Source: a virus. From it: a stretch of 31,386 nucleotides of DNA. Positions within the stretch are counted from its first letter, which is position 1. Each line of letters opens with the position of its first letter. Below are positions 5,510 through 30,700 of this stretch, one piece after another. The translations under genes and the position numbers were made by a program. Location: positions 1 through 31,386 of IMG/VR virus record IMGVR_UViG_3300030101_002514. One strand, 5' to 3'. The notes under the pieces were generated by a model. The model searched no databases. It was not told where the DNA came from and saw nothing but the letters and a program-made list of their open reading frames with translations.

Positions 5510-7870
5510 ATGTCTAATTATGGAGAAAAATACGGTGTAAATTTTTTTGATGTAGATGAAAATAAATTTCGTTTACAGATATTAGAATATGGTTACGGTG
5601 GTGATTCATCTACAAATCTTACACTAGCTAAGAATCCAATCACAATTACTTATGAACAAGATGATGATTATTTCAAACCAATAATCGGATCAACTTGTAA
5701 GATTGATTTAATAATAGAAGATAAAACATTAGGTGACGAATGGGAAGATGAACCTACTAACTGGGAAGTTGCTGATTTTTTTTGGGAGTATGTTGATCTA
5801 ACTTTCTTAGCACCACAATCAGATAGAGAATTTAAAATAAAAGTACATAGAGAAATTTTAAATGGAACAAGTGATGCGTATGCTGTAGCAAATAGATTAA
5901 AAGATACATCTGTAGATTTTACTGCTAAATTAAAAGTAGGTGATTTAATTATTAATACAACTACAGGAGCATCAACAACTGTTGCACAAGTAAGTTCTGC
6001 AACAATTATTAAATTAAGTGCTGATATTTTTGCAGATGCAGGTGGTGAAACTTATGAAATATTTAGAAACTTATGGACTGGATTCATAGTTCAAGACAGT
6101 TACACATTTCCTATTGCAAACTATCCATTTCAGATAAGCGTTTATGCTACTGATCTTATTGGTACTTTAGACGGTTATACTTATGATCTAACTACTAATT
6201 CACCGACTGCTTTTGCTTCTATACAGAATTGTCTTAAAAATATTAATGTTCAAGATGCAGAGGGTACTGCTGTAAAAAGTTTAGAGTTTGGTTATAAGGT
6301 TCTATGTAGATTAAATTATTTTACGGTTTCAGCAGGTTCTTATACATCAAATGATAATCCTTATACATTGACACACATAAATTTTGTTGATGCGTTTAAA
6401 GATGAAAATTCTAATTTCTTAGATTGTAAAACAATATTAATATCATTATTACAAATGTTTAATTGTCGCATATTCCAACACGAAGCAACTTGGACAATAA
6501 TAGATAACGCTTCTTTATCTCTTAGTTCTTTTAATGATAGTGGTGGTTCTTATTCAAAAGAATTTAAAGTATATAGCAAGGCAGGATCACTTATTGGTAC
6601 TGAAGCTATTACTTCACCAGTTGTAAATATTAATTCATCACAGAGCAGTTCTACAATACAACCTATGAATAATGATTTATTGAAAAGAATTAAACCTCCT
6701 ACAATAAGACAAAAGAATCAGATAAATATAAAACACCAGTTAAAAAAGACTATCACAAATGGTGGTTTTGAGACTACATCTTCACCAACTGGTAGCACAC
6801 CAAGTTATGGTAATGACGTTGGTACTTGGTCTATCGTTGATAAATCAATAACCTTTGGTGTTGATGTTGAAGCTGTTGATACGTCAATTTCACCTCCAGT
6901 CACTTTCGGTAAACCTGCATATCAAGGATCATTCAGTTTATTATCTATAGGTTCTTCATCATCTACATCAACATTTGTTGCAACAAATAATACTGGTAAC
7001 ATTGGATCAACTACAGAAGAAACTATTTTATCTTTTGCAACAAGAGGATTTTCACCTGATCTTTCATCTGATCCTACTGGACAAACACCACTGAATAATA
7101 TAGGTTATACGATTAAGTTTCAGATACTACTTGGTGGTGTTCATTATTGGAACAATTCTACTGGTGAATGGACATCAAGCGTAACAACAAATTTTATATT
7201 TGATTCTACAAATGACGAATGGGTAAGAAGAGAAATTAAGATGAGTAATGCACCAACTACTGGTGCAGTAGAGATAAAACTTTTAGTATCACAAGAAAGT
7301 GCATACGGTAATTCTAATTTTAGAATGTATTATGATGATTTCACATTACAAAGCAGTAGTGACTTAGAATATTTAGATACAGAGGTTAAGATTGTAAAAA
7401 CAGAATTTAAAAATAATAATGCAGTATTGAAATCTGTAGAAAATATATTTGGTACAATTCAAGATGCAAAATATAGTAATTGTTTAGTTGATGCTAGTGG
7501 TAATGTTATATTTCAATTTAAAGGTTTTGATGAAGGCGTTGCACTCGGAAACCCTTTAGAAGTAAAAATGAATCAACAACGATTGAATGATTTTGCAAAA
7601 AACAATGAAAGATATGAAGGTACATTTAGAAAAGTAAAAGATAGCGATAATTTCACAACACCAATAAGTATGCTTACATTACCCAAAATAAGTTTTGATA
7701 CGTTTAGTTTAGATAATCATTGTGCTATTGATAATTTAAAATATAATGTTTCTGAAAACAGATATAGTTTAAGGATGCACGTACCTGATCAATCAAACTT
7801 CACAGATGCTAATTTATTTAATGATATAGAAGTTAGAAGAAACTTCTACGAAGATAAACCTAAAGATTAA
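5510..7870 (+). CDS. Tail hub/tip structural protein with lectin-like domain
   Basis: 786 residues, starting two bases after the tape measure stop codon. The position after the tape measure is that of distal tail/hub proteins (Dit/Tal). The N-terminal region (about 1-250, containing N-P-I-T-I-T-Y-E-Q-D-D-D-Y-F-K-P and F-L-A-P-Q-S-D-R-E-F-K-I-K) has the beta-rich look of a baseplate hub protein. An insertion at about 415-612 starts with N-G-G-F-E and ends with M-Y-Y-D-D-F-T-L, the usual edges of a carbohydrate-binding jelly roll (CBM4/9-like). The C-terminal ~170 residues are again beta-rich. Likely role: closing the tail tube and attaching to the cell surface. The hub assignment is positional; the lectin-like fold is inferred from its edge motifs. 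The stop codon overlaps that of a convergent gene by four bases. Confidence 0.72.
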   Translation: MSNYGEKYGVNFFDVDENKFRLQILEYGYGGDSSTNLTLAKNPITITYEQDDDYFKPIIGSTCKIDLIIEDKTLGDEWEDEPTNWEVADFFWEYVDLTFLAPQSDREFKIKVHREILNGTSDAYAVANRLKDTSVDFTAKLKVGDLIINTTTGASTTVAQVSSATIIKLSADIFADAGGETYEIFRNLWTGFIVQDSYTFPIANYPFQISVYATDLIGTLDGYTYDLTTNSPTAFASIQNCLKNINVQDAEGTAVKSLEFGYKVLCRLNYFTVSAGSYTSNDNPYTLTHINFVDAFKDENSNFLDCKTILISLLQMFNCRIFQHEATWTIIDNASLSLSSFNDSGGSYSKEFKVYSKAGSLIGTEAITSPVVNINSSQSSSTIQPMNNDLLKRIKPPTIRQKNQINIKHQLKKTITNGGFETTSSPTGSTPSYGNDVGTWSIVDKSITFGVDVEAVDTSISPPVTFGKPAYQGSFSLLSIGSSSSTSTFVATNNTGNIGSTTEETILSFATRGFSPDLSSDPTGQTPLNNIGYTIKFQILLGGVHYWNNSTGEWTSSVTTNFIFDSTNDEWVRREIKMSNAPTTGAVEIKLLVSQESAYGNSNFRMYYDDFTLQSSSDLEYLDTEVKIVKTEFKNNNAVLKSVENIFGTIQDAKYSNCLVDASGNVIFQFKGFDEGVALGNPLEVKMNQQRLNDFAKNNERYEGTFRKVKDSDNFTTPISMLTLPKISFDTFSLDNHCAIDNLKYNVSENRYSLRMHVPDQSNFTDANLFNDIEVRRNFYEDKPKD

Positions 7871-8912: not shown

Positions 8913-8973
8913 AATATAAATTTAAGTTTTGTGTCTTATGACAATACAATAATATATAAAATATTTTATAATA

Positions 8974-8981
8974 CAAAAATA
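8974..8981 (-). promoter_or_regulatory. Possible minus-strand -7 element (TATTTTTG)
   Basis: Read on the minus strand, TATTTTTG matches TAnnTTTG and lies 61 bases before the ATG at 8912, in the gap after the asparagine-synthetase-like gene. It is embedded in AT-rich sequence with two AAATATTTT stretches, so a chance match is possible. Confidence 0.3.
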
Positions 8982-8988
8982 TTTTATA

Positions 8989-9792
8989 CTAAAATAGGTT
9001 TAATTGTTGCTTTGACCAATCGTGACAGATGTCCATAATACGTGATCTTTTTTTAAAATTTATTTCTTTATTAAATAATAGTTTTTCAAAAACAGTTGGT
9101 ATGTTTGAAACCAACTGTAAATTCAAATGTTTTTTTAAATTCAAATCATTAATCTCATCAAAACATTTACGTATTAAATATTTTTCTTGTGGTTTATTTA
9201 TTTCAGACCAATCATATTGTATAAAATAATTAAATACTTTTTCATTAATATATGGTGCAATTAATATTTTTTTGTATTCTTTACTTAACATTTTAAGTTG
9301 TTCAACGCCTGCAGGATTATCACTTGAAAAATATTTTTTACGAAACTTATCAAATTCTATTTTAGTATGTATATGATTTATCATTGCAGATTTGCTCAAT
9401 CCGTAATGACCATCTGCGGCGACACCTGAAATAATTACTTTTTCTTCAATGCAAGGAAACACATACAAGAAAGGCCATGTACACTCAAACTGCGTTTTTT
9501 TCTTACATTTATATTTATTAGATAATTTTTTAAAATCATTAATAATGTTTTTATCAGAAACAGATATTTTTGTAAACTTAATATTGTGTTTTTTACATAT
9601 TTCTTCAGCTTTTTTTGAATCATATGTTTCTATGTTGTTTACATAAAAAGTATAAGCGTGAATCTTTAAATTCAATCTTTTTGCTGTAAATAAACAACTA
9701 CTGCTGTCAACACCACCAGATAATAAAATTGCTACTTGTTTATTATTTTTAACATCTTTTCTTATAATTTCATATAATATTTTATCTATCAT
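8989..9792 (-). CDS. Asparagine-synthetase-like PP-loop amidoligase without glutaminase domain
   Basis: 267 residues. The PP-loop S-G-G-V-D-S-S lies at 25-31, followed by a Rossmann-like strand pattern, and S-G-V-A-A-D-G-H-Y-G at 122-131 matches the S-G-x-G-A-D-E-x-x-G-G motif of AsnB synthetase domains. Family members activate a carboxylate as acyl-adenylate and transfer nitrogen or an amine to it (asparagine, beta-lactam and carbapenam synthetases). The N-terminal class II glutaminase domain of true AsnB is absent, so the amine donor would be ammonia or another amine. It is the last large gene of the operon with the CmoA-like enzyme and DNA methyltransferase, and its ATG overlaps the resolvase stop codon (ATGA, 9789-9792). 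I infer that it amidates a carboxylated base. Other PP-loop roles such as tRNA modification remain possible. Confidence 0.75.
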   Translation of the reverse strand: MIDKILYEIIRKDVKNNKQVAILLSGGVDSSSCLFTAKRLNLKIHAYTFYVNNIETYDSKKAEEICKKHNIKFTKISVSDKNIINDFKKLSNKYKCKKKTQFECTWPFLYVFPCIEEKVIISGVAADGHYGLSKSAMINHIHTKIEFDKFRKKYFSSDNPAGVEQLKMLSKEYKKILIAPYINEKVFNYFIQYDWSEINKPQEKYLIRKCFDEINDLNLKKHLNLQLVSNIPTVFEKLLFNKEINFKKRSRIMDICHDWSKQQLNLF

Positions 9793-10133
9793 ATAGAAAA
9801 TATTTTATGATAAATTAACATTTCAACAAGTTCATGAAAATCGTTTTTTTGCATTATGATATATTCGCCGTCATTTTTTCTTTTATGATAAATAATTTTG
9901 TAATCATCTATATCTGATTGCATCTCTTTAAATATTTTATGATATGACGGATTATTTATTAAAGACTTACATTGTATCGCAAACGGCTTAGTATTAACAA
10001 GATCAATTTTTCTGTCATCCATCATCTTAGACGCATAACGTGAAGTCTCGCAGTTTGACCAACCGAGTTCTCTATATTCTCTGCGAATTTGTCTCTCGTA
10101 ATCGTGTCCCTTTCTTCTGTTTGTGTTTGACAT
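9789..10133 (-). CDS. Holliday-junction-resolvase-like nuclease (PD-(D/E)XK)
   Basis: 114 residues. R-R-K-G-H-D-Y-E13-R-Q-I-R-R at the N-terminus, then D-D-R-K-I-D44-L-V and F-A-I-Q-C-K56 form the E...D...(E/Q)-x-K constellation of archaeal/phage Hjc-type resolvases. In this family Q-x-K commonly replaces E-x-K. It would cut branched DNA during replication and recombination before packaging. Its gene is coupled to the downstream PP-loop gene by an ATGA overlap. The fold assignment is strong; junction specificity is inferred from resemblance. Confidence 0.78.
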   Translation of the reverse strand: MSNTNRRKGHDYERQIRREYRELGWSNCETSRYASKMMDDRKIDLVNTKPFAIQCKSLINNPSYHKIFKEMQSDIDDYKIIYHKRKNDGEYIIMQKNDFHELVEMLIYHKIFSI

Positions 10134-10197
10134 ATAATATACTTAAAAGAGCTATTAAGCAAATAGCTATAAATTTAATTAATCTTTTTTTTATCAT
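10072..10197 (-). CDS. Possible tiny membrane protein (41 aa) overlapping two genes
   Basis: ATG at 10197 opens 41 codons: K-K-R-L-I-K, then about 16 hydrophobic residues (FIAICLIALLSILYV), then a basic tail. It spans the otherwise non-coding gap 10134-10174 but overlaps the upstream gene by 23 bases and the resolvase gene by 62. The membrane segment resembles other tiny membrane peptides of this phage. The large overlap keeps confidence low. The hairpin at 10150-10168 lies inside it, and the two explanations compete. Confidence 0.28.
   Translation of the reverse strand: MIKKRLIKFIAICLIALLSILYVKHKQKKGTRLRETNSQRI
10150..10168 (-). terminator. Hairpin between small gene and resolvase gene
   Basis: AGCTATT (10150-10156) and AATAGCT (10162-10168) form a perfect 7-bp stem with a 5-base loop. 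In the minus direction it is followed by CTTTTAAG. It may be a weak terminator or attenuator partway along the leftward operon. Confidence 0.4.
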
Positions 10198-10501
10198 CTC
10201 TTTCAACGAAAAGTGCGTAACCTAGATAACAGTAATTAATCACGTCTGCAAATCTAGAATGTATGGGCTCTGACTTTTTTAAATTTGCGTTCTTCATGTG
10301 TGCCATGATACTCTGTAAATGTTTTTCAAAAAAAACTCCCCATACTCGTAATTCAGAAATATCTAATCTCTCTGCTGTTTCTTTGAAATTATGCAGTACA
10401 TCTAAGTCTTCATTTGTGTACTCTGGTCTTTTATTCTGCATAATATCAAAGCTGTAATCATTTAATTGTTTTACTAACTTGTCAAATTCTTTTTGTGTCA
10501 T
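10175..10501 (-). CDS. All-helical phage protein with SEPIxxRxxDxxNY signature (108 aa)
   Basis: 108 residues, predicted all-alpha. It has an R-P-E-Y-T-N-E-D-L-D-V-L-H-N-F-K segment, V-W-G-V-F-F-E-K-H-L-Q-S-I, and a closing S-E-P-I-H-S-R-F-A-D-V-I-N-Y-C-Y-L. I remember this S-E-P-I-x-x-R-x-x-D-x-x-N-Y arrangement from a widespread but uncharacterised phage family. The conserved E, K-H, R-x-x-D and N-Y positions faintly recall all-alpha NTP pyrophosphatase (MazG-like) or nucleotide-modification-associated domains, but I cannot confirm that. Its ATG overlaps the upstream gene's stop by four bases. A nucleotide-handling role would suit the operon and remains inference. Confidence 0.68.
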   Translation of the reverse strand: MTQKEFDKLVKQLNDYSFDIMQNKRPEYTNEDLDVLHNFKETAERLDISELRVWGVFFEKHLQSIMAHMKNANLKKSEPIHSRFADVINYCYLGYALFVERDDKKKIN

Positions 10502-10743
10502 AATACTTTTTTTAATATGTCATATTTAACTTCATCTAATTCTTTGATTTTGCTTAAAAGAATCAACTGTTCTTGTTTTGCTTTTGCTCTTTCTTCGTCA
10601 GTAGAATCTATACCAAGATTACATTCAATGTTCGCCATAGCTTTCATGAGTGCATCTATCTTTGCTTTTGTTTGTTTGTTAGTGTTGTAACTACCAAACA
10701 GTTTTCGTTTTTCGTTTTGTGATAATTCGTCTGTTGTTACCAT
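10498..10743 (-). CDS. Small helical hypothetical protein (81 aa)
   Basis: 81 residues, charged and helical. The K-Q-T-K-A-K-I-D-A-L-M-K-A-M segment and the C-terminal L-S-K-I-K-E-L-D-E-V-K-Y-D-I-L-K-K suggest a coiled coil. The ATG shares one base with the methyltransferase stop (TAATG), and its end overlaps the next gene, so it is translated as part of the same coupled series. No family recognised. It could be an accessory subunit for its neighbours, but nothing in the sequence shows this. Confidence 0.66.
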   Translation of the reverse strand: MVTTDELSQNEKRKLFGSYNTNKQTKAKIDALMKAMANIECNLGIDSTDEERAKAKQEQLILLSKIKELDEVKYDILKKVL

Positions 10744-11822
10744 TATTTTAAAATTGTGTTATAAATATGCTTTGCTATTGCATACATCATCAGAGGAGGT
10801 ACGCTTCTGCCTAGTCTCTCCCATTTCTTAGCGAATGTTTCGCCGAGATAATAGTCATAAGGAAAGCTACACACACTCTTTAATTCGTCAATAGTCAAAG
10901 TTCTTTTTATATGTGGGTGCCATAGTTCAGCACTTGTTGTTACAGTTCTACATGGTTTATTTGCGTCAAGACGTATGCGTCCTGCACCACTGATCTTTTC
11001 TTTTATTCTATCACCACAAGCTAACATACTTTCGCCAGGCTGTTGAAGATCATATACTCTTTGCTGTTCTTTAGATAATTTTTTATAAGAACTATCTATT
11101 TCTATCTTAATATTATCAATGACTTCTTGAATAGTTATTTTATCTTTTATCTTTTCGGGATACGTTATGTTCTTCAGTATATCGTTACGAACACCTATAA
11201 ATATTATTCTTTCTCTAGCTTGTGGCACATAATAATCACTTGAATCTAATACTCTATATTCTACGCTGTAACCACAAGAAATTAAATTATAATAAATTGT
11301 TTTTTTATGTTCGTCAAATATATGTGTTTGTGCTGAACCAAGAAGATTTTGTGATGCACCCATAGTGAGACCTTTTACGTTTTCAGCTACAAAAACTCTT
11401 GGCTGTACATCTCTGACTAATCTTGCAAATTCAAAAAACAAATCATCTGTTCTCTGTACTGTGTCTGAATATTTTTTTTCTTGACCCCATGCTTTTTCTC
11501 GTAAACCCGCCATGCTAAAAGAAGCACAAGGTGGAGAACCGTCAAGAATATCAAGTTCACCTTTTTTAATATTTAATTCTTTAAATATATCTTCTGCTTT
11601 TAATTGTCTCACATCTTGTGTGAAGATATGCGTGTCTGGATAATTCTTAGCATAACATTCATAAGCGTCTTTTATAAATTCATTTATTGCAAGTATGTTA
11701 CCACCTGCCAATCTGTAGCCAGTAGATGAGCCGCCACAACCTGCAAATAATGATATGACTTTGAAAAAATTTTGTTGACTTTTTCGTTTTACTAAATCTA
11801 AACTATAATTAAATGGTTTCAT
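10743..11822 (-). CDS. C5-cytosine DNA methyltransferase with Arg in motif X (candidate carboxymethyltransferase)
   Basis: 359 residues with all core motifs of C5 enzymes: motif I L-F-A-G-C-G-G (25-31), motif IV G-S-P-P-C99-A-S-F-S with the catalytic Cys, motif VI E147-N-V, motif VIII Q201-A-R-E-R, a target-recognition region at about 215-310, and motif X near the end. Motif X normally reads G-N-(S/A)-V. Here it is G338-R339-S-V-P-P; the codon at 10808-10806 is AGA, so Asn cannot arise from a single base error. A Lys at the equivalent Asn (N374) of M.MpeI confers use of carboxy-SAM and yields 5-carboxymethylcytosine. The upstream gene encodes a carboxy-SAM synthase homologue, coupled by an ATGA overlap (11819-11822). 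I see no partner restriction enzyme. The C5 family is certain; carboxymethyl transfer is inferred. Confidence 0.95.
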   Translation of the reverse strand: MKPFNYSLDLVKRKSQQNFFKVISLFAGCGGSSTGYRLAGGNILAINEFIKDAYECYAKNYPDTHIFTQDVRQLKAEDIFKELNIKKGELDILDGSPPCASFSMAGLREKAWGQEKKYSDTVQRTDDLFFEFARLVRDVQPRVFVAENVKGLTMGASQNLLGSAQTHIFDEHKKTIYYNLISCGYSVEYRVLDSSDYYVPQARERIIFIGVRNDILKNITYPEKIKDKITIQEVIDNIKIEIDSSYKKLSKEQQRVYDLQQPGESMLACGDRIKEKISGAGRIRLDANKPCRTVTTSAELWHPHIKRTLTIDELKSVCSFPYDYYLGETFAKKWERLGRSVPPLMMYAIAKHIYNTILK

Positions 11823-12487
11823 TTTATTAAAATCCAGCTTTTAAAATTAAGAGATTGAAAAAAACATTTAATCTTTTTAAAACCTGCTTCGTAAAACATA
11901 TTTAAATTTTCTTTTTCACTTAATGGTCTCATGAGACATCTTAGATCAATTTGTTTTTCTAAAATTTCTTTATGTGTAAAATTTTTAAGTTTTTGATCAT
12001 AATGTGTAAATGTAAATATGTCTTCTAAAAAACCATCATCTATATATATTTTTTCAGCAATGATACAAGCACCACCTTTATTGAGATTTTTACAAACTTT
12101 TTTTAACAATTTTTCTCTCTGCGATATTTCTAAAAATTGTAATGTAAATATCAATAGTATAAAATTTGTGTTATAAAATTTTATTCTATCATCTGTTATG
12201 TCTCTTAAATAAAAAGAAAGATTCTTAGAAGATGTTTCTTTTAATAGATTATCTGATATGTCGTAGCCTACGAATGATGCGTTGTTTTTATTTTGTTTAT
12301 GTAACTGTTTTAGAAGAAGGCCTGTAGAACAACCAAGATCATATACGTTTGAATTTTTAGTTATAAAATATGTTGATATTTTTTGTATTAAATCAATTAA
12401 AGAATGATAATTAGATACACTTTTATTTATGTGATCATCAAAATTATCTATCGTATCAAAGCTGAAGTTCTGTTTGTTTGTTTTCAT
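11819..12487 (-). CDS. cmoA: CmoA-like carboxy-S-adenosylmethionine synthase homologue
   Basis: 222 residues, collinear with bacterial CmoA (about 247 aa). Matching segments are H-I-N-K-S-V-S-N-Y near the start, V-Y-D-L-G-C-S-T-G (48-56, SAM-binding), F-T-L-Q-F-L-E (114-120), L-N-K-G-G-A-C-I-I-A-E-K (135-146), H-Y-D-Q-K (162-166), A-G-F (201-203) and the ending F-F-Q-S-L-N-F-K-S-W. CmoA converts SAM and prephenate into carboxy-SAM, normally for tRNA wobble-uridine modification together with CmoB, which is absent here. By my alignment E. coli Arg199, which contacts the carboxylate, corresponds to Gln179; Arg183 lies one helical turn on and might substitute. The next gene is a DNA methyltransferase with a substitution suited to carboxy-SAM, so supplying that cofactor is the likely role. 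Use as an ordinary SAM methyltransferase cannot be excluded. Confidence 0.82.
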   Translation of the reverse strand: MKTNKQNFSFDTIDNFDDHINKSVSNYHSLIDLIQKISTYFITKNSNVYDLGCSTGLLLKQLHKQNKNNASFVGYDISDNLLKETSSKNLSFYLRDITDDRIKFYNTNFILLIFTLQFLEISQREKLLKKVCKNLNKGGACIIAEKIYIDDGFLEDIFTFTHYDQKLKNFTHKEILEKQIDLRCLMRPLSEKENLNMFYEAGFKKIKCFFQSLNFKSWILIK

Positions 12488-12965
12488 ATTTTACTGCTTT
12501 CATTCTAGTTTCATAATCTAGTTCTATATTTAAAAATACACCAAGTTTTACTGCTGAAATAATTTCAAATTTTTTCTCATAAAATTCTTCTTCATCACTA
12601 TTTAAATTTAATCTAGAGTTTTTACTCATCTCTATAACAGTCAACGGTTTAAATCTTACATTTTTATTAAATAAATTTTCTTCAGGTAATTCACCCATAA
12701 TTATATAACCATATGTGTTTTTGAATCTTGGATATTGTGCTGTTATTAAAGTATTATATGATAATAACTGAGCAGTCGTTAATTTTTTTTGTTTGTATTT
12801 GTATTCTATAAAAAATTGTTGATTAGTTCTCAAACTACTTATATGACAATCAACGTCTTGTATAGAACATTTTTTTGTATTCATATAACTAATATGAAAA
12901 TTTAAAAGATTATTATGATAACCATCTATATATTTTTTTTCTGTATTTATATCTTGAAAATTCAT
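12456..12965 (-). CDS. Putative nuclease-like protein (PD-(D/E)XK-type motif)
   Basis: 169 residues when started at the ATG at 12965, which overlaps the exonuclease stop as ATGA; an upstream in-frame ATG at 13001 would add 12 residues inside the previous gene. I-Q-D37-V-D39-C-H-I, then F-F-I-E54-Y-K56-Y-K and a following A-Q66-L-L-S-Y resemble the D...E-x-K...Q core of the PD-(D/E)XK fold, as in small phage nucleases and Holliday-junction or restriction-like enzymes. The C-terminal half shows no motif I know. The end overlaps the CmoA-like gene by 32 bases. The nuclease call is tentative; the substrate is unknown. Confidence 0.6.
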   Translation of the reverse strand: MNFQDINTEKKYIDGYHNNLLNFHISYMNTKKCSIQDVDCHISSLRTNQQFFIEYKYKQKKLTTAQLLSYNTLITAQYPRFKNTYGYIIMGELPEENLFNKNVRFKPLTVIEMSKNSRLNLNSDEEEFYEKKFEIISAVKLGVFLNIELDYETRMKAVKYENKQTELQL

Positions 12966-13726
12966 AATATGTGACTGCCGTCTTCGTTGATGTCTTGCCA
13001 ATGAAAACCTTGTATTTTATTATTGATTATATATTGTCGCCATGACTTAAAAGCAAGACGCCATGCTTGTTTACCTTTTTCAATTAAATTATCTGATAAT
13101 GAATAAACAGCTACATCATACGGATACTTGTTTTCAATAGCAATAAAACGAAACGCAGAGGGATCGAAGCCAAGCATTTCTGAATAGAAACACGCCTGAA
13201 GATGATAAGCGTAATTGAAAATTGAGTTTCTAAAAGCTATTGGTGATGCGTCTTGACAAGTCTTAATGTCAATGATATATCTATTCTTTTTGATTCCGTC
13301 AGGTCTTATACGTACAGGAACGTTATCGAATGTACCGTAATAACTATTTTCTATTTCATCTAATGTAGATATTAATTTATTTGCAAGTTTATTGTTTGTA
13401 ACATTTTCTATTATTTTATTTAAAGATTCTTTTTCTTCATGACTAACAATAATTTTATCTTTATTTTCAGATAATATATGTTTTTTGTATTCTCTATCTT
13501 TCTTTGTTCTTAGATTTAAATTTTTAGGTAAACAAAAAACTTCTTTCTTTTCATATTCTAAAAGCAAACTATGTACAGCACTACCAAAGTTCATTGCAGA
13601 AGTTGATACATATTTCTCTCTGTTTACAAAATGATATACTGACTTCTTAAATATTGTTTTAAGACCACTTGCTGAAATACTATCATGTGAATGATATTCT
13701 TGATTCGTGTCTTTCTTTTTTATCAC
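12962..13726 (-). CDS. PD-(D/E)XK exonuclease (RecE/DUF3799-like)
   Basis: 254 residues. A G-S-A-V-H52-S motif near the N-terminus, V-R-I-R-P-D143-G, then Y-I-I-D153-I-K155-T, and Y-H-L-Q177-A-C-F-Y181 give the His...D...D-x-K...Q-x-x-x-Y order of the RecB/RecE-type phage exonuclease superfamily. It probably resects double-stranded DNA for recombination-dependent replication, working with the SSB-like protein encoded nearby. The start is a GTG at 13726 that overlaps the stop of the preceding 45-aa gene (GTGA). No single-strand annealing protein was recognised nearby, although a divergent one could hide among the unknown genes. Confidence 0.85.
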   Translation of the reverse strand: MIKKKDTNQEYHSHDSISASGLKTIFKKSVYHFVNREKYVSTSAMNFGSAVHSLLLEYEKKEVFCLPKNLNLRTKKDREYKKHILSENKDKIIVSHEEKESLNKIIENVTNNKLANKLISTLDEIENSYYGTFDNVPVRIRPDGIKKNRYIIDIKTCQDASPIAFRNSIFNYAYHLQACFYSEMLGFDPSAFRFIAIENKYPYDVAVYSLSDNLIEKGKQAWRLAFKSWRQYIINNKIQGFHWQDINEDGSHIL

Positions 13727-13860
13727 TTTATTTTTTTTAAATTATGTTTTATATAATAGATAAAATATAGAATTGCAGGACTGAATACTAATATGTTGAA
13801 AATGTTTGGGTGCCAGTACTCGCCACAGAAACCAAAAAAATGTTTTAAAACTTCTATCAT
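13723..13860 (-). CDS. Small membrane protein (45 aa)
   Basis: 45 residues: an amphipathic N-terminus with H-F-F-G-F-C-G-E-Y-W-H-P-N, one membrane segment (about 22-38, ILVFSPAILYFIYYI) and a basic tail K-H-N-L-K-K-I-K. The F-G-x-C-G-E-x-W-H-P-N signature recalls a small uncharacterised protein I associate with phages of aquatic bacteria. The stop overlaps the exonuclease GTG start. The leader upstream carries an inverted repeat. Function unknown. Confidence 0.65.
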   Translation of the reverse strand: MIEVLKHFFGFCGEYWHPNIFNILVFSPAILYFIYYIKHNLKKIK

Positions 13861-14613: not shown

Positions 14614-14645
14614 ATTACAAATTAAGTATAAATAAATTTATTATA

Positions 14646-14654
14646 CAAATATTA
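14646..14654 (-). promoter_or_regulatory. Probable leftward promoter element (TAATATTTG)
   Basis: The minus strand reads TAATATTTGTATAA 32 bases before the regulator ATG. The same 14 bases occur at 2079-2092 before the tail tube gene. It is a one-base-longer variant of TAnnTTTG. Confidence 0.4.
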
Positions 14655-14723
14655 TTTTTATTTTATTAAAAATATTTTATATTGCATAAAATAACAAGCA
14701 CTTAGCTTTAATATATATATTAA

Positions 14724-27752: not shown

Positions 27753-30700
27753 ATGGGTACAGCACTTACTGGAAATACTATCGCATCCTCGTATTTAGGA
27801 TTACTAAAATCAACTGATTCATTAGCAATAGGCACATCAGCAAAAAGAATTACTGATGGTGCAGGAAATGATTTACCAATAAAACTTACAACAACTCAAA
27901 TGTTTTTTAATGTGGGTAGTGTTTCAGCTCCTGCATTATCTTTTGATGGTAATAGTTCAGAAGGTTTTTATATGCCTGATGATGAGACATTAGCAATAAC
28001 ACTTGGTGCTAATGAAAGAGTAAGATTTTTTCCTAGTGGTAAGTTGAAATTAAATAATTATGGTGGTGGTTCTTTTACTGGTACAGTCACACAAAGACTT
28101 GGTGTAACTTCATCAGGTGAAGTCGTAGAAATACCTATTGGTTCAGGTGCTGTTGATGGTTCAGGTACAGCAGGAAAACTAGCAAAATTCACGGATTCAG
28201 ATACGCTTGGTGATTCTCTATTAACTGAAAGTACAAATAGTGTTAGTTTAGCTGATAATAAAGAATTAATACTTGGTAATGATTCTGATTTAACAATAAA
28301 ACATTCAAGCACTGGTAACCAAAACTCAATTAAAAGCGACACTCATCAATTATTTATAACTTCTGATGTGGGTATGGAATTAGCTGATAATGGTGGTAAA
28401 TCATACTTTGAAGCTACGGAGGGTGGAAGTTCAAGATTATTTTTTAATAATTCGAAAAAAATAGAAACAACTAATACTGGAGCGGACATAACTGGAACAA
28501 TAACAACAACTGGTAGCGTATCAGTAGGAGATTCTATAACTCTTGCAGATAATAATAAAATAAAGCTAGGTAGTAGTGCAGATTTAGAAATCTATCACGA
28601 TGGTAGTAATAGTTATATCGATGAGGGAGGAACTGGTGGATTATTGTTAGAATCGAATTCGTATATATATTTACAAACAAGTAATGGAGGTGCTTATACT
28701 GGTAGATTTATAAATGGTGGTGCAGTTGAATTATATCATAACGGAAATAAAAAATTTTCAACAACAAGTACAGGAACAACGACTACTGGCGATGGTATTT
28801 TTACAGGCTCTGTTGCTATAGGAGGAACATCACCCGATGAAAGTCTACATATCACAAATAGTAGCGGAGCTAACATTATTTTAAATTCTGATGCAAATAC
28901 GGCAGATAGTGGTATATATATGTCAGAGGGGGCAGATGCTACGCCAACTCAAAATGGTGCTTATCTTCATTATGATGCAAGTGCAAATGAGTTCAAAATT
29001 GCAACTGGTGGGAGTTCACTTACAGATAGGTTTACAATAGCAAGAGATACTGGCAACGCAACTTTTGCAGGAGATGTATTTGTAAGTCAATCAAATACAG
29101 ATGCGGTACCCACAAATAATCTTTCAGGAGATGAATTGTTAAATATTAGCAATAATGATAATTCAGGTGTTTATTCAGCTTTAAAATTTAGAACTAGAAC
29201 AAGTGGTGCGGCTCATTCATTAGTAGGTTTAAGAATGGACTCTGATTATACTGATGCTAAATTTTTTATAAGACTAAGAAATGCAGGATTAACTTCTCAA
29301 GAAGTTTTTAATGTAGGTAATACGGGTGCAACTTTTGCAGGTAATCTAGCTTTAAATGGTTTAACAAATAGTGATTTTGATGCTGATGCTGATAATTTAG
29401 TATTAGGTGCGAGTAGTGGAAACGCAGGACTAACTATTTTTTCAGGTTCAAGTGCAAATAATTTTGGCAGTATTTATTTTGCAGATGGCACAACAACTAC
29501 AGCTAAAAAAGCAGGTTTTATCAGATACGAGCAGAATACTTCTGAGATGACGTTTGGAATAAATGCAGTACAAAAATTAAATATTGCACTTGATGGTACT
29601 GCAACTTTTAGTGGAAATGTTTTGATAGGTAAAACTGCTAATGCTATAGGTGGTGCAGGGGTTGTTATAAGAAAAGCTGGTGAAATATTTTCTACAAGAG
29701 CAGGGGATGTTGCAGGATTTAACAGATTGACAACGGATGGTAATATTGTTCAGTTTTACAAGGATGGTTCAGTAGTTGGAGCTATAGGCACACAAAAATG
29801 GGGCATTGGTGAAGCGAATCCAGATTTACAGCTTCATATCAAAAATACTGCAACTGGTAATACTGGTATTGCTATTGAAAATACAAATAATGCACAGAAT
29901 TTAGATATAGATTTTTATAGTAATGCAGGTTCAGCACAAGGTAGAATAAGATACGAAGAGGGTGCAGGTGCTTTCAACTTCTCACCTAATGTAAGTTCTC
30001 CTAACGCAATGTATATTAATTTTTCTAATAATATAGGAATTGGAACGACATCGCCTAAACATTATTCGGGAACAACTGGTACAGTTTTATCTATAGATAG
30101 TGCAACTCATAGAGGTATATTAGAATTAAGTGGTGCATCAAATTCTGATGAAGCAATTATTGGTGCAATAACATTTGCTAACACAGAAAACACTTCGGCA
30201 AATGGTGCGTTATCTCAAATTTTTACTTATACAGAGACAAGCGATTCAAATGCAGGAGATGATAGTGGTGGACATCTAGCATTTTTAACTAGACCCGAAG
30301 CAGGTACAATAACAGAACGTATGCGTATTAAATCAACTGGTGCTGTTGAAATAACTGGTTCATCAACAACCACAAACGCTCAAGCTTTTATAACAAATGA
30401 TAATTCAGTTCTAACAATAGGTTCATCAGTTTCGGGTAGCGTTGTCAAAGATATTAGCTTTAATTCACCATCTGCTATGATGTATATTGATGGTAGTACA
30501 TCTCACGTTGGTATCGGAACAACTTCGCCTCAAAGACTTCTTAATTTATCACAAGCAAATGGTGCTAATATAAGATTTGATAATAGTACAACTGGAAGAC
30601 ATTTTGTTATTGGTGAAGGTGTTGGCACAAATGATGTATTTTCATTTAGGGGTCTTTCATATCAAAGTACAGATACATTGTCTATTGATTTTGCTAATGA

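Follow-up and report, generated by a model that had tools for sequence, protein, structure and literature searches.

A predicted CmoA-CmoX-CmoY cytosine hypermodification gene set in an AT-rich tailed-phage fragment

The IMG/VR virus record IMGVR_UViG_3300030101_002514, analysed here over its whole length of 31,386 bases (30.4% G+C; hereafter the window), carries on its minus strand homologues of CmoA, CmoX and CmoY, the three enzymes that modify cytosine in the DNA of Synechococcus phage S-B43. We consider it highly probable (about 0.85) that the window is a tailed-phage fragment with a complete hypermodification set of this kind, acting as in S-B43. The pathway was described by Yang et al. 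(Nat Commun, 7 Dec 2025; PMC12783734): in S-B43, CmoA makes carboxy-S-adenosylmethionine (carboxy-SAM), CmoX moves the carboxymethyl group to cytosine and CmoY ligates glycine, and the virion DNA holds 5-glycylcarboxymethylcytosine (m/z 343.1). The published evidence includes a crystal structure and liquid chromatography-mass spectrometry of virion DNA. An initial annotation of the window, made from its letters, had left open whether natural carboxymethylated DNA had been reported; this paper answers that question. The window system is one more member of the published system and the pathway itself is not new. Because the survey in that paper drew on IMG/VR and other sets, the window CmoX may already be among its 5,615 candidate CmoX homologues. 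What is new here is the occurrence of CmoY as a single-gene cassette, which a close syntenic relative lacks, and an apparent shift of the carboxylate-binding arginine in this CmoA lineage. The known range of the pathway is also widened, to an AT-rich phage remote from the cyanophage in which it was proven. The three genes are:

11819–12487, minus strand: CmoA homologue, predicted carboxy-SAM synthase, 222 residues (TIGR00740, PDB matches, identity to SpCmoA, residue check)
10743–11822, minus strand: CmoX homologue, predicted DNA cytosine C5-carboxymethyltransferase, 359 residues (PF00145, 8YF3, R339)
8989–9792, minus strand: CmoY homologue, predicted 5-carboxymethylcytosine amide ligase, 267 residues (PF00733, identity to SpCmoY, structure model)

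In the window, the assignment is based on the identity of the genes, their key residues, their linkage and its recurrence. Each chemical step has been shown elsewhere, for the S-B43 enzymes (SpCmoA, SpCmoX and SpCmoY), which are 35–44% identical to those of the window; by analogy with them we infer the same activity in this phage, the amine, the sequence context and a protective role. In the proposed mechanism, CmoA would carboxylate S-adenosylmethionine (SAM) with prephenate, giving carboxy-SAM. The SPPC cysteine of CmoX, with Arg339 at motif X, would attack cytosine at C6, within a short sequence context, and the carboxymethyl group would pass to C5, giving 5-carboxymethylcytosine (5cxmC). 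CmoY would then adenylate the carboxylate with ATP and join an amine, most likely glycine, so that virion DNA would contain 5-glycylcarboxymethylcytosine, and the modified cytosine would protect phage DNA from host restriction. The two systems share all three enzymes (35, 43 and 44% identity for CmoA, CmoX and CmoY, respectively), overlapping genes, the motif-X Arg, the SPPC motif, an AsnB-type ligase without glutaminase and a re-sited CmoA Arg. They differ in gene order, which is CmoA-CmoY-CmoX in S-B43 and CmoA-CmoX-three small genes-CmoY in the window, and in setting, S-B43 being a 214-kb cyanophage whereas the window is a 31-kb phage fragment with 30% GC.

CmoX matches the DNA_methylase family (PF00145, E 4.9e-53). 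Its best PDB match is 8YF3, the crystal structure of SpCmoX (E 4.6e-66), followed by M.HaeIII (E 5e-20). The catalytic motif SPPC corresponds to S96-P97-P98-C99, with C99 as the catalytic residue. The initial annotation had pointed to C5 enzymes altered at the motif X Asn as able to transfer a carboxymethyl group to cytosine, and motif X here reads RLGRSVPP, with R339 in place of Asn and aligned to R350 of SpCmoX. SPPC and the motif-X Arg are invariant among the five aligned CmoX proteins. R350 binds the carboxymethyl moiety in SpCmoX, and the wild-type enzyme takes carboxy-SAM only (PMC12783734). These features support the prediction that the window CmoX uses carboxy-SAM and makes 5cxmC. A basic residue at the motif X Asn likewise lets an engineered C5-methyltransferase, M.MpeI N374K, act as a carboxymethyltransferase, as cited in PMC12783734; according to that citation the engineered enzyme carries Lys and prefers CG, whereas the window enzyme is natural, has Arg and is linked to CmoA.

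The recurrence of cmoA homologues beside C5-methyltransferases with a basic motif X residue had been set in advance as a test, and the pair does recur. We scanned viral contigs on the one hand, and bacterial and archaeal genomes on the other, with alignments, which were needed since single-protein scans gave few loci; both kinds of C5-methyltransferase were recovered. A CmoA match was present at 76/88 loci with a motif-X Arg (72/80 viral and 4/8 genomic) and at 0/62 loci with a motif-X Asn. The Fisher p value of 2e-30 is indicative only, as loci related by descent were counted as independent and Arg-type proteins served as the seeds of the viral scan. Some low-scoring CmoA matches in these loci (70–116 bits) form divergent lineages. 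In 66 of the 74 distinct viral CmoX loci, CmoA is encoded on the same strand at a distance of at most 2 kb. The motif-X Arg is accompanied by CmoA and the motif-X Asn by its absence, which provides an independent test of the key residue of the pathway.

Several variants of CmoX were seen in these loci. Tandem pairs with motif X GRMVPP and GRMVPS occur beside CmoA and CmoY (L043, L056, L058, L066, L072, L082 and others), and perhaps provide two target specificities. The CmoX homologue of Dickeya phage vB_DsoM_AD1 (AD1_048, L179:87-2216; motif X WERLGRICVP) carries an insertion that resembles an intein and lies precisely at the catalytic motif, GSPP|CFTEDTII...VVHN|CKGFSTAG; the residue directly following the splice would be the catalytic Cys. 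AD1_048 is encoded about 15 kb from the CmoA and CmoY genes of that phage, and we therefore rejected the idea that the Erwinia and Dickeya jumbo phages have CmoA and CmoY without CmoX and modify another acceptor base. In two Staphylococcus phages, SPbeta-like (L006:4968-6667) and vB-SscS-F1 (L007:5001-7519, which also has CmoY), CmoA adjoins an HhaI-like C5-methyltransferase whose motif X, VVGGVIN, has neither Asn nor Arg. The homologue of this enzyme in Psychrobacillus phage Perkons has an ordinary QAGNS and no CmoA match. The VVGGVIN enzymes are possibly a second, Arg-less route to the use of carboxy-SAM, one that falls beyond what the published survey counted.

The window CmoA matches the CmoA model TIGR00740 (E 3.9e-36), and its best PDB matches are the CmoA structures 4gek, 1im8 and 4iwn. 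It retains Y39, D62, G64, S66, D89, D117 and E164; the SAM contacts N90 and N132 are kept neither here nor in SpCmoA. CmoY matches Asn_synthase (PF00733, E 2.6e-13) and aligns with SpCmoY over 266 residues. Its pyrophosphate-binding loop (PP-loop) SGGVDS is intact, and a KKTxxEC..PF.Y block is conserved in 14 homologues. The structure model (mean predicted local distance difference test score, pLDDT, 90.6) matches the synthetase domains of beta-lactam synthetase and asparagine synthetase, with a template modelling score (TM-score) by query of about 0.76–0.81. CmoY shares with these domains the SGGxDS loop and the synthetase fold; unlike them, it has no N-terminal glutaminase or pseudo-glutaminase, and identity is about 13%.

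Several observations weigh against activity as in S-B43. The CmoA score of 124.9 bits lies below the TIGR00740 equivalog cut-off of 193.3 (SpCmoA was not scored for comparison), and the protein lacks the Arg199 of E. coli CmoA, with Gln179 at the equivalent position. The target-recognition region of CmoX diverges from that of SpCmoX, so that the GC motif of SpCmoX cannot be transferred to the window enzyme. The window shows no GpC depletion (observed/expected 1.2), and we dropped such depletion as a mark of restriction or of GC-targeted modification. Of the 74 distinct CmoX loci, many of which are on short contigs, only 27 had a CmoY-type ligase. The low CmoA score, together with the matches to PF00145 and to the generic Methyltransf_31, would also suit an ordinary 5-methylcytosine methyltransferase beside an unrelated small-molecule methyltransferase. 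We rejected this as very improbable, on account of the Arg in place of Asn at motif X and of the linkage to CmoA; the best PDB matches of the neighbouring gene to CmoA structures also argue against it. In E. coli, CmoA works in tRNA modification, and phage copies are often annotated accordingly. A role in tRNA cmo5U modification, independent of the methyltransferase, seems even more remote: the CmoA gene overlaps that of a motif-X-Arg methyltransferase in a pair that recurs and, as the initial annotation had noted, CmoB has no match in the window, itself a genome fragment.

Of all the predicted steps, the choice of amine is the least certain. CmoA, carboxy-SAM and 5cxmC had been proposed for the window, with CmoY as an "amidoligase" and a carbamoylmethyl or other amide as a possible product. 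Most of this scheme stands, as the genes are homologues of those of the published pathway, with the diagnostic Arg, and CmoY does have an AsnB synthetase domain. However, family searches of the protein detected no glutaminase domain in CmoY. The lack of this domain and the likeness to a proven glycine ligase, whose core is conserved, make glycine the most likely amine and 5-glycylcarboxymethylcytosine (+115 Da) the probable final base; carbamoylmethylcytosine (+57 Da) as the default product was down-weighted. The substrate of CmoY is not readable from sequence alone, and the published survey contains ligase clusters with differing active sites as well as one glutaminase-bearing cluster (PMC12783734). 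The same pathway with a different amine (ammonia, a polyamine or an amino acid other than glycine), giving a carbamoylmethyl or other amide, is a minority possibility. Against it, the window ligase differs from the full AsnB-like, glutaminase-bearing genes that adjoin CmoX in a Nonomuraea prophage and in Streptomyces phage TurkishDelight. We think it rather unlikely that the lineage departs from S-B43 more broadly, with a non-glycine amine, another CmoX context and a single-gene CmoY cassette that is acquired or lost, sister phages carrying bare 5cxmC in one case and the amide in the other.

The Nonomuraea case comes from a N. cavernae contig (L095, 4920-8196) and L096, where CmoX, the full AsnB-like gene and CmoA are followed by a terminase-like gene. 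We had considered this chromosomal CmoX as a host system and rejected the idea, since the terminase-like gene indicates a probable prophage, which is a candidate for the ammonia (carbamoylmethyl) form.

In E. coli CmoA, Arg199 binds the carboxymethyl group by a salt bridge (Byrne et al. 2013, PMC3663124). The window protein belongs to the same family (32% identity) and has most SAM-contact residues, but the E. coli pair Arg199/Glu203 is Gln179/Arg183. SpCmoA has Glu188 at the first position and, like the window protein, an Arg at the second, one helical turn on. As SpCmoA is proven to be active with Glu188, activity in this lineage does not depend on Arg199. Among 63 distinct CmoA proteins (named references and matches of at least 150 bits), 49 carry Arg at 203 but lack it at 199, 11 combine Arg199 with an acidic residue at 203, none has both Arg residues and three have neither. 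A divergent, weak-scoring group also has Arg at neither position, with a QRP motif further on. The Arg at position 203 appears to take over the carboxymethyl salt bridge, the carboxylate-binding Arg having moved by one turn. Arg199, which is not mentioned in the main text of Yang et al. (PMC12783734), was proposed in 2013 as a mark of carboxy-SAM enzymes; it is an unsafe marker, as most phage CmoAs found carry the Arg one turn later. A further CmoA homologue, in a human faecal contig (L008:15828-16622; MT835562, a record marked UNVERIFIED), has no CmoX or CmoY match and lies among genes resembling an ABC transporter and a dehydrogenase, a setting that suggests a biosynthetic cluster rather than DNA modification.

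The three genes belong to a close-packed minus-strand series running from 13726 to 8989. The coordinates of the initial annotation and the ATGA overlap of CmoA with the C5-methyltransferase gene were right. The PP-loop gene is, as it stated, the fourth gene downstream of the methyltransferase in the same series; three of the four junctions overlap and the other, between 10175 and 10133, is a 41-nt gap. The remaining genes are:

12962–13726, minus strand: exonuclease VIII-like gene, first of the series (phrog_412, E 3.5e-55); pathway membership is not implied
12456–13001, minus strand: gene upstream of CmoA with no convincing family match; pathway membership is not implied
10498–10743, minus strand: small gene of unknown function between CmoX and CmoY, 73% identical to an L013 frame at the same position, with no family match
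10175–10501, minus strand: small gene between CmoX and CmoY, phrog_6802 (unknown function), 71% identical in L013
9789–10133, minus strand: small nuclease-like gene overlapping CmoY, weak RusA-like/PDDEXK match, 57% identical in L013

The closest relative found is a contig represented by L011 and L013. It keeps the order of the block, with homologues of the small genes at 7867, 8225 and 8419, then of 9789–10133, 10175–10501 and 10498–10743, followed by CmoX (57–59% identity), CmoA (76%) and the exonuclease-like gene. CmoY is absent: the 0.9 kb at its expected place holds only small frames, and the window without CmoY would have about the same spacing as the relative. CmoY is a one-gene cassette, present in the window and missing from its syntenic relative. 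Provided that the enzymes behave as predicted, the window phage would have the amide form and its relative bare 5cxmC, which makes the pair a natural comparison of amide and bare carboxymethyl DNA.

The window also encodes a terminase, portal, head protease, major head protein, neck, tail tape measure, tail fibre and holin. It ends within an open frame of 1,211 codons and is not a closed genome. The host cannot be named, because the terminase shares only 34% identity with its nearest relatives, from Bacteroides phages. A scan of the operon for promoters and terminators gave no excess over shuffled sequences. A direct repeat of 182 nt (96% identical) links positions 1–182 with 30159–30340, the latter in an open frame near the other end, and may reflect either tail-gene paralogy or an assembly effect. 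Similar AT-rich intergenic elements upstream of minus-strand genes, at 8955–8988, 13727–13768 and 14637–14682, are possible phage promoters or operators.

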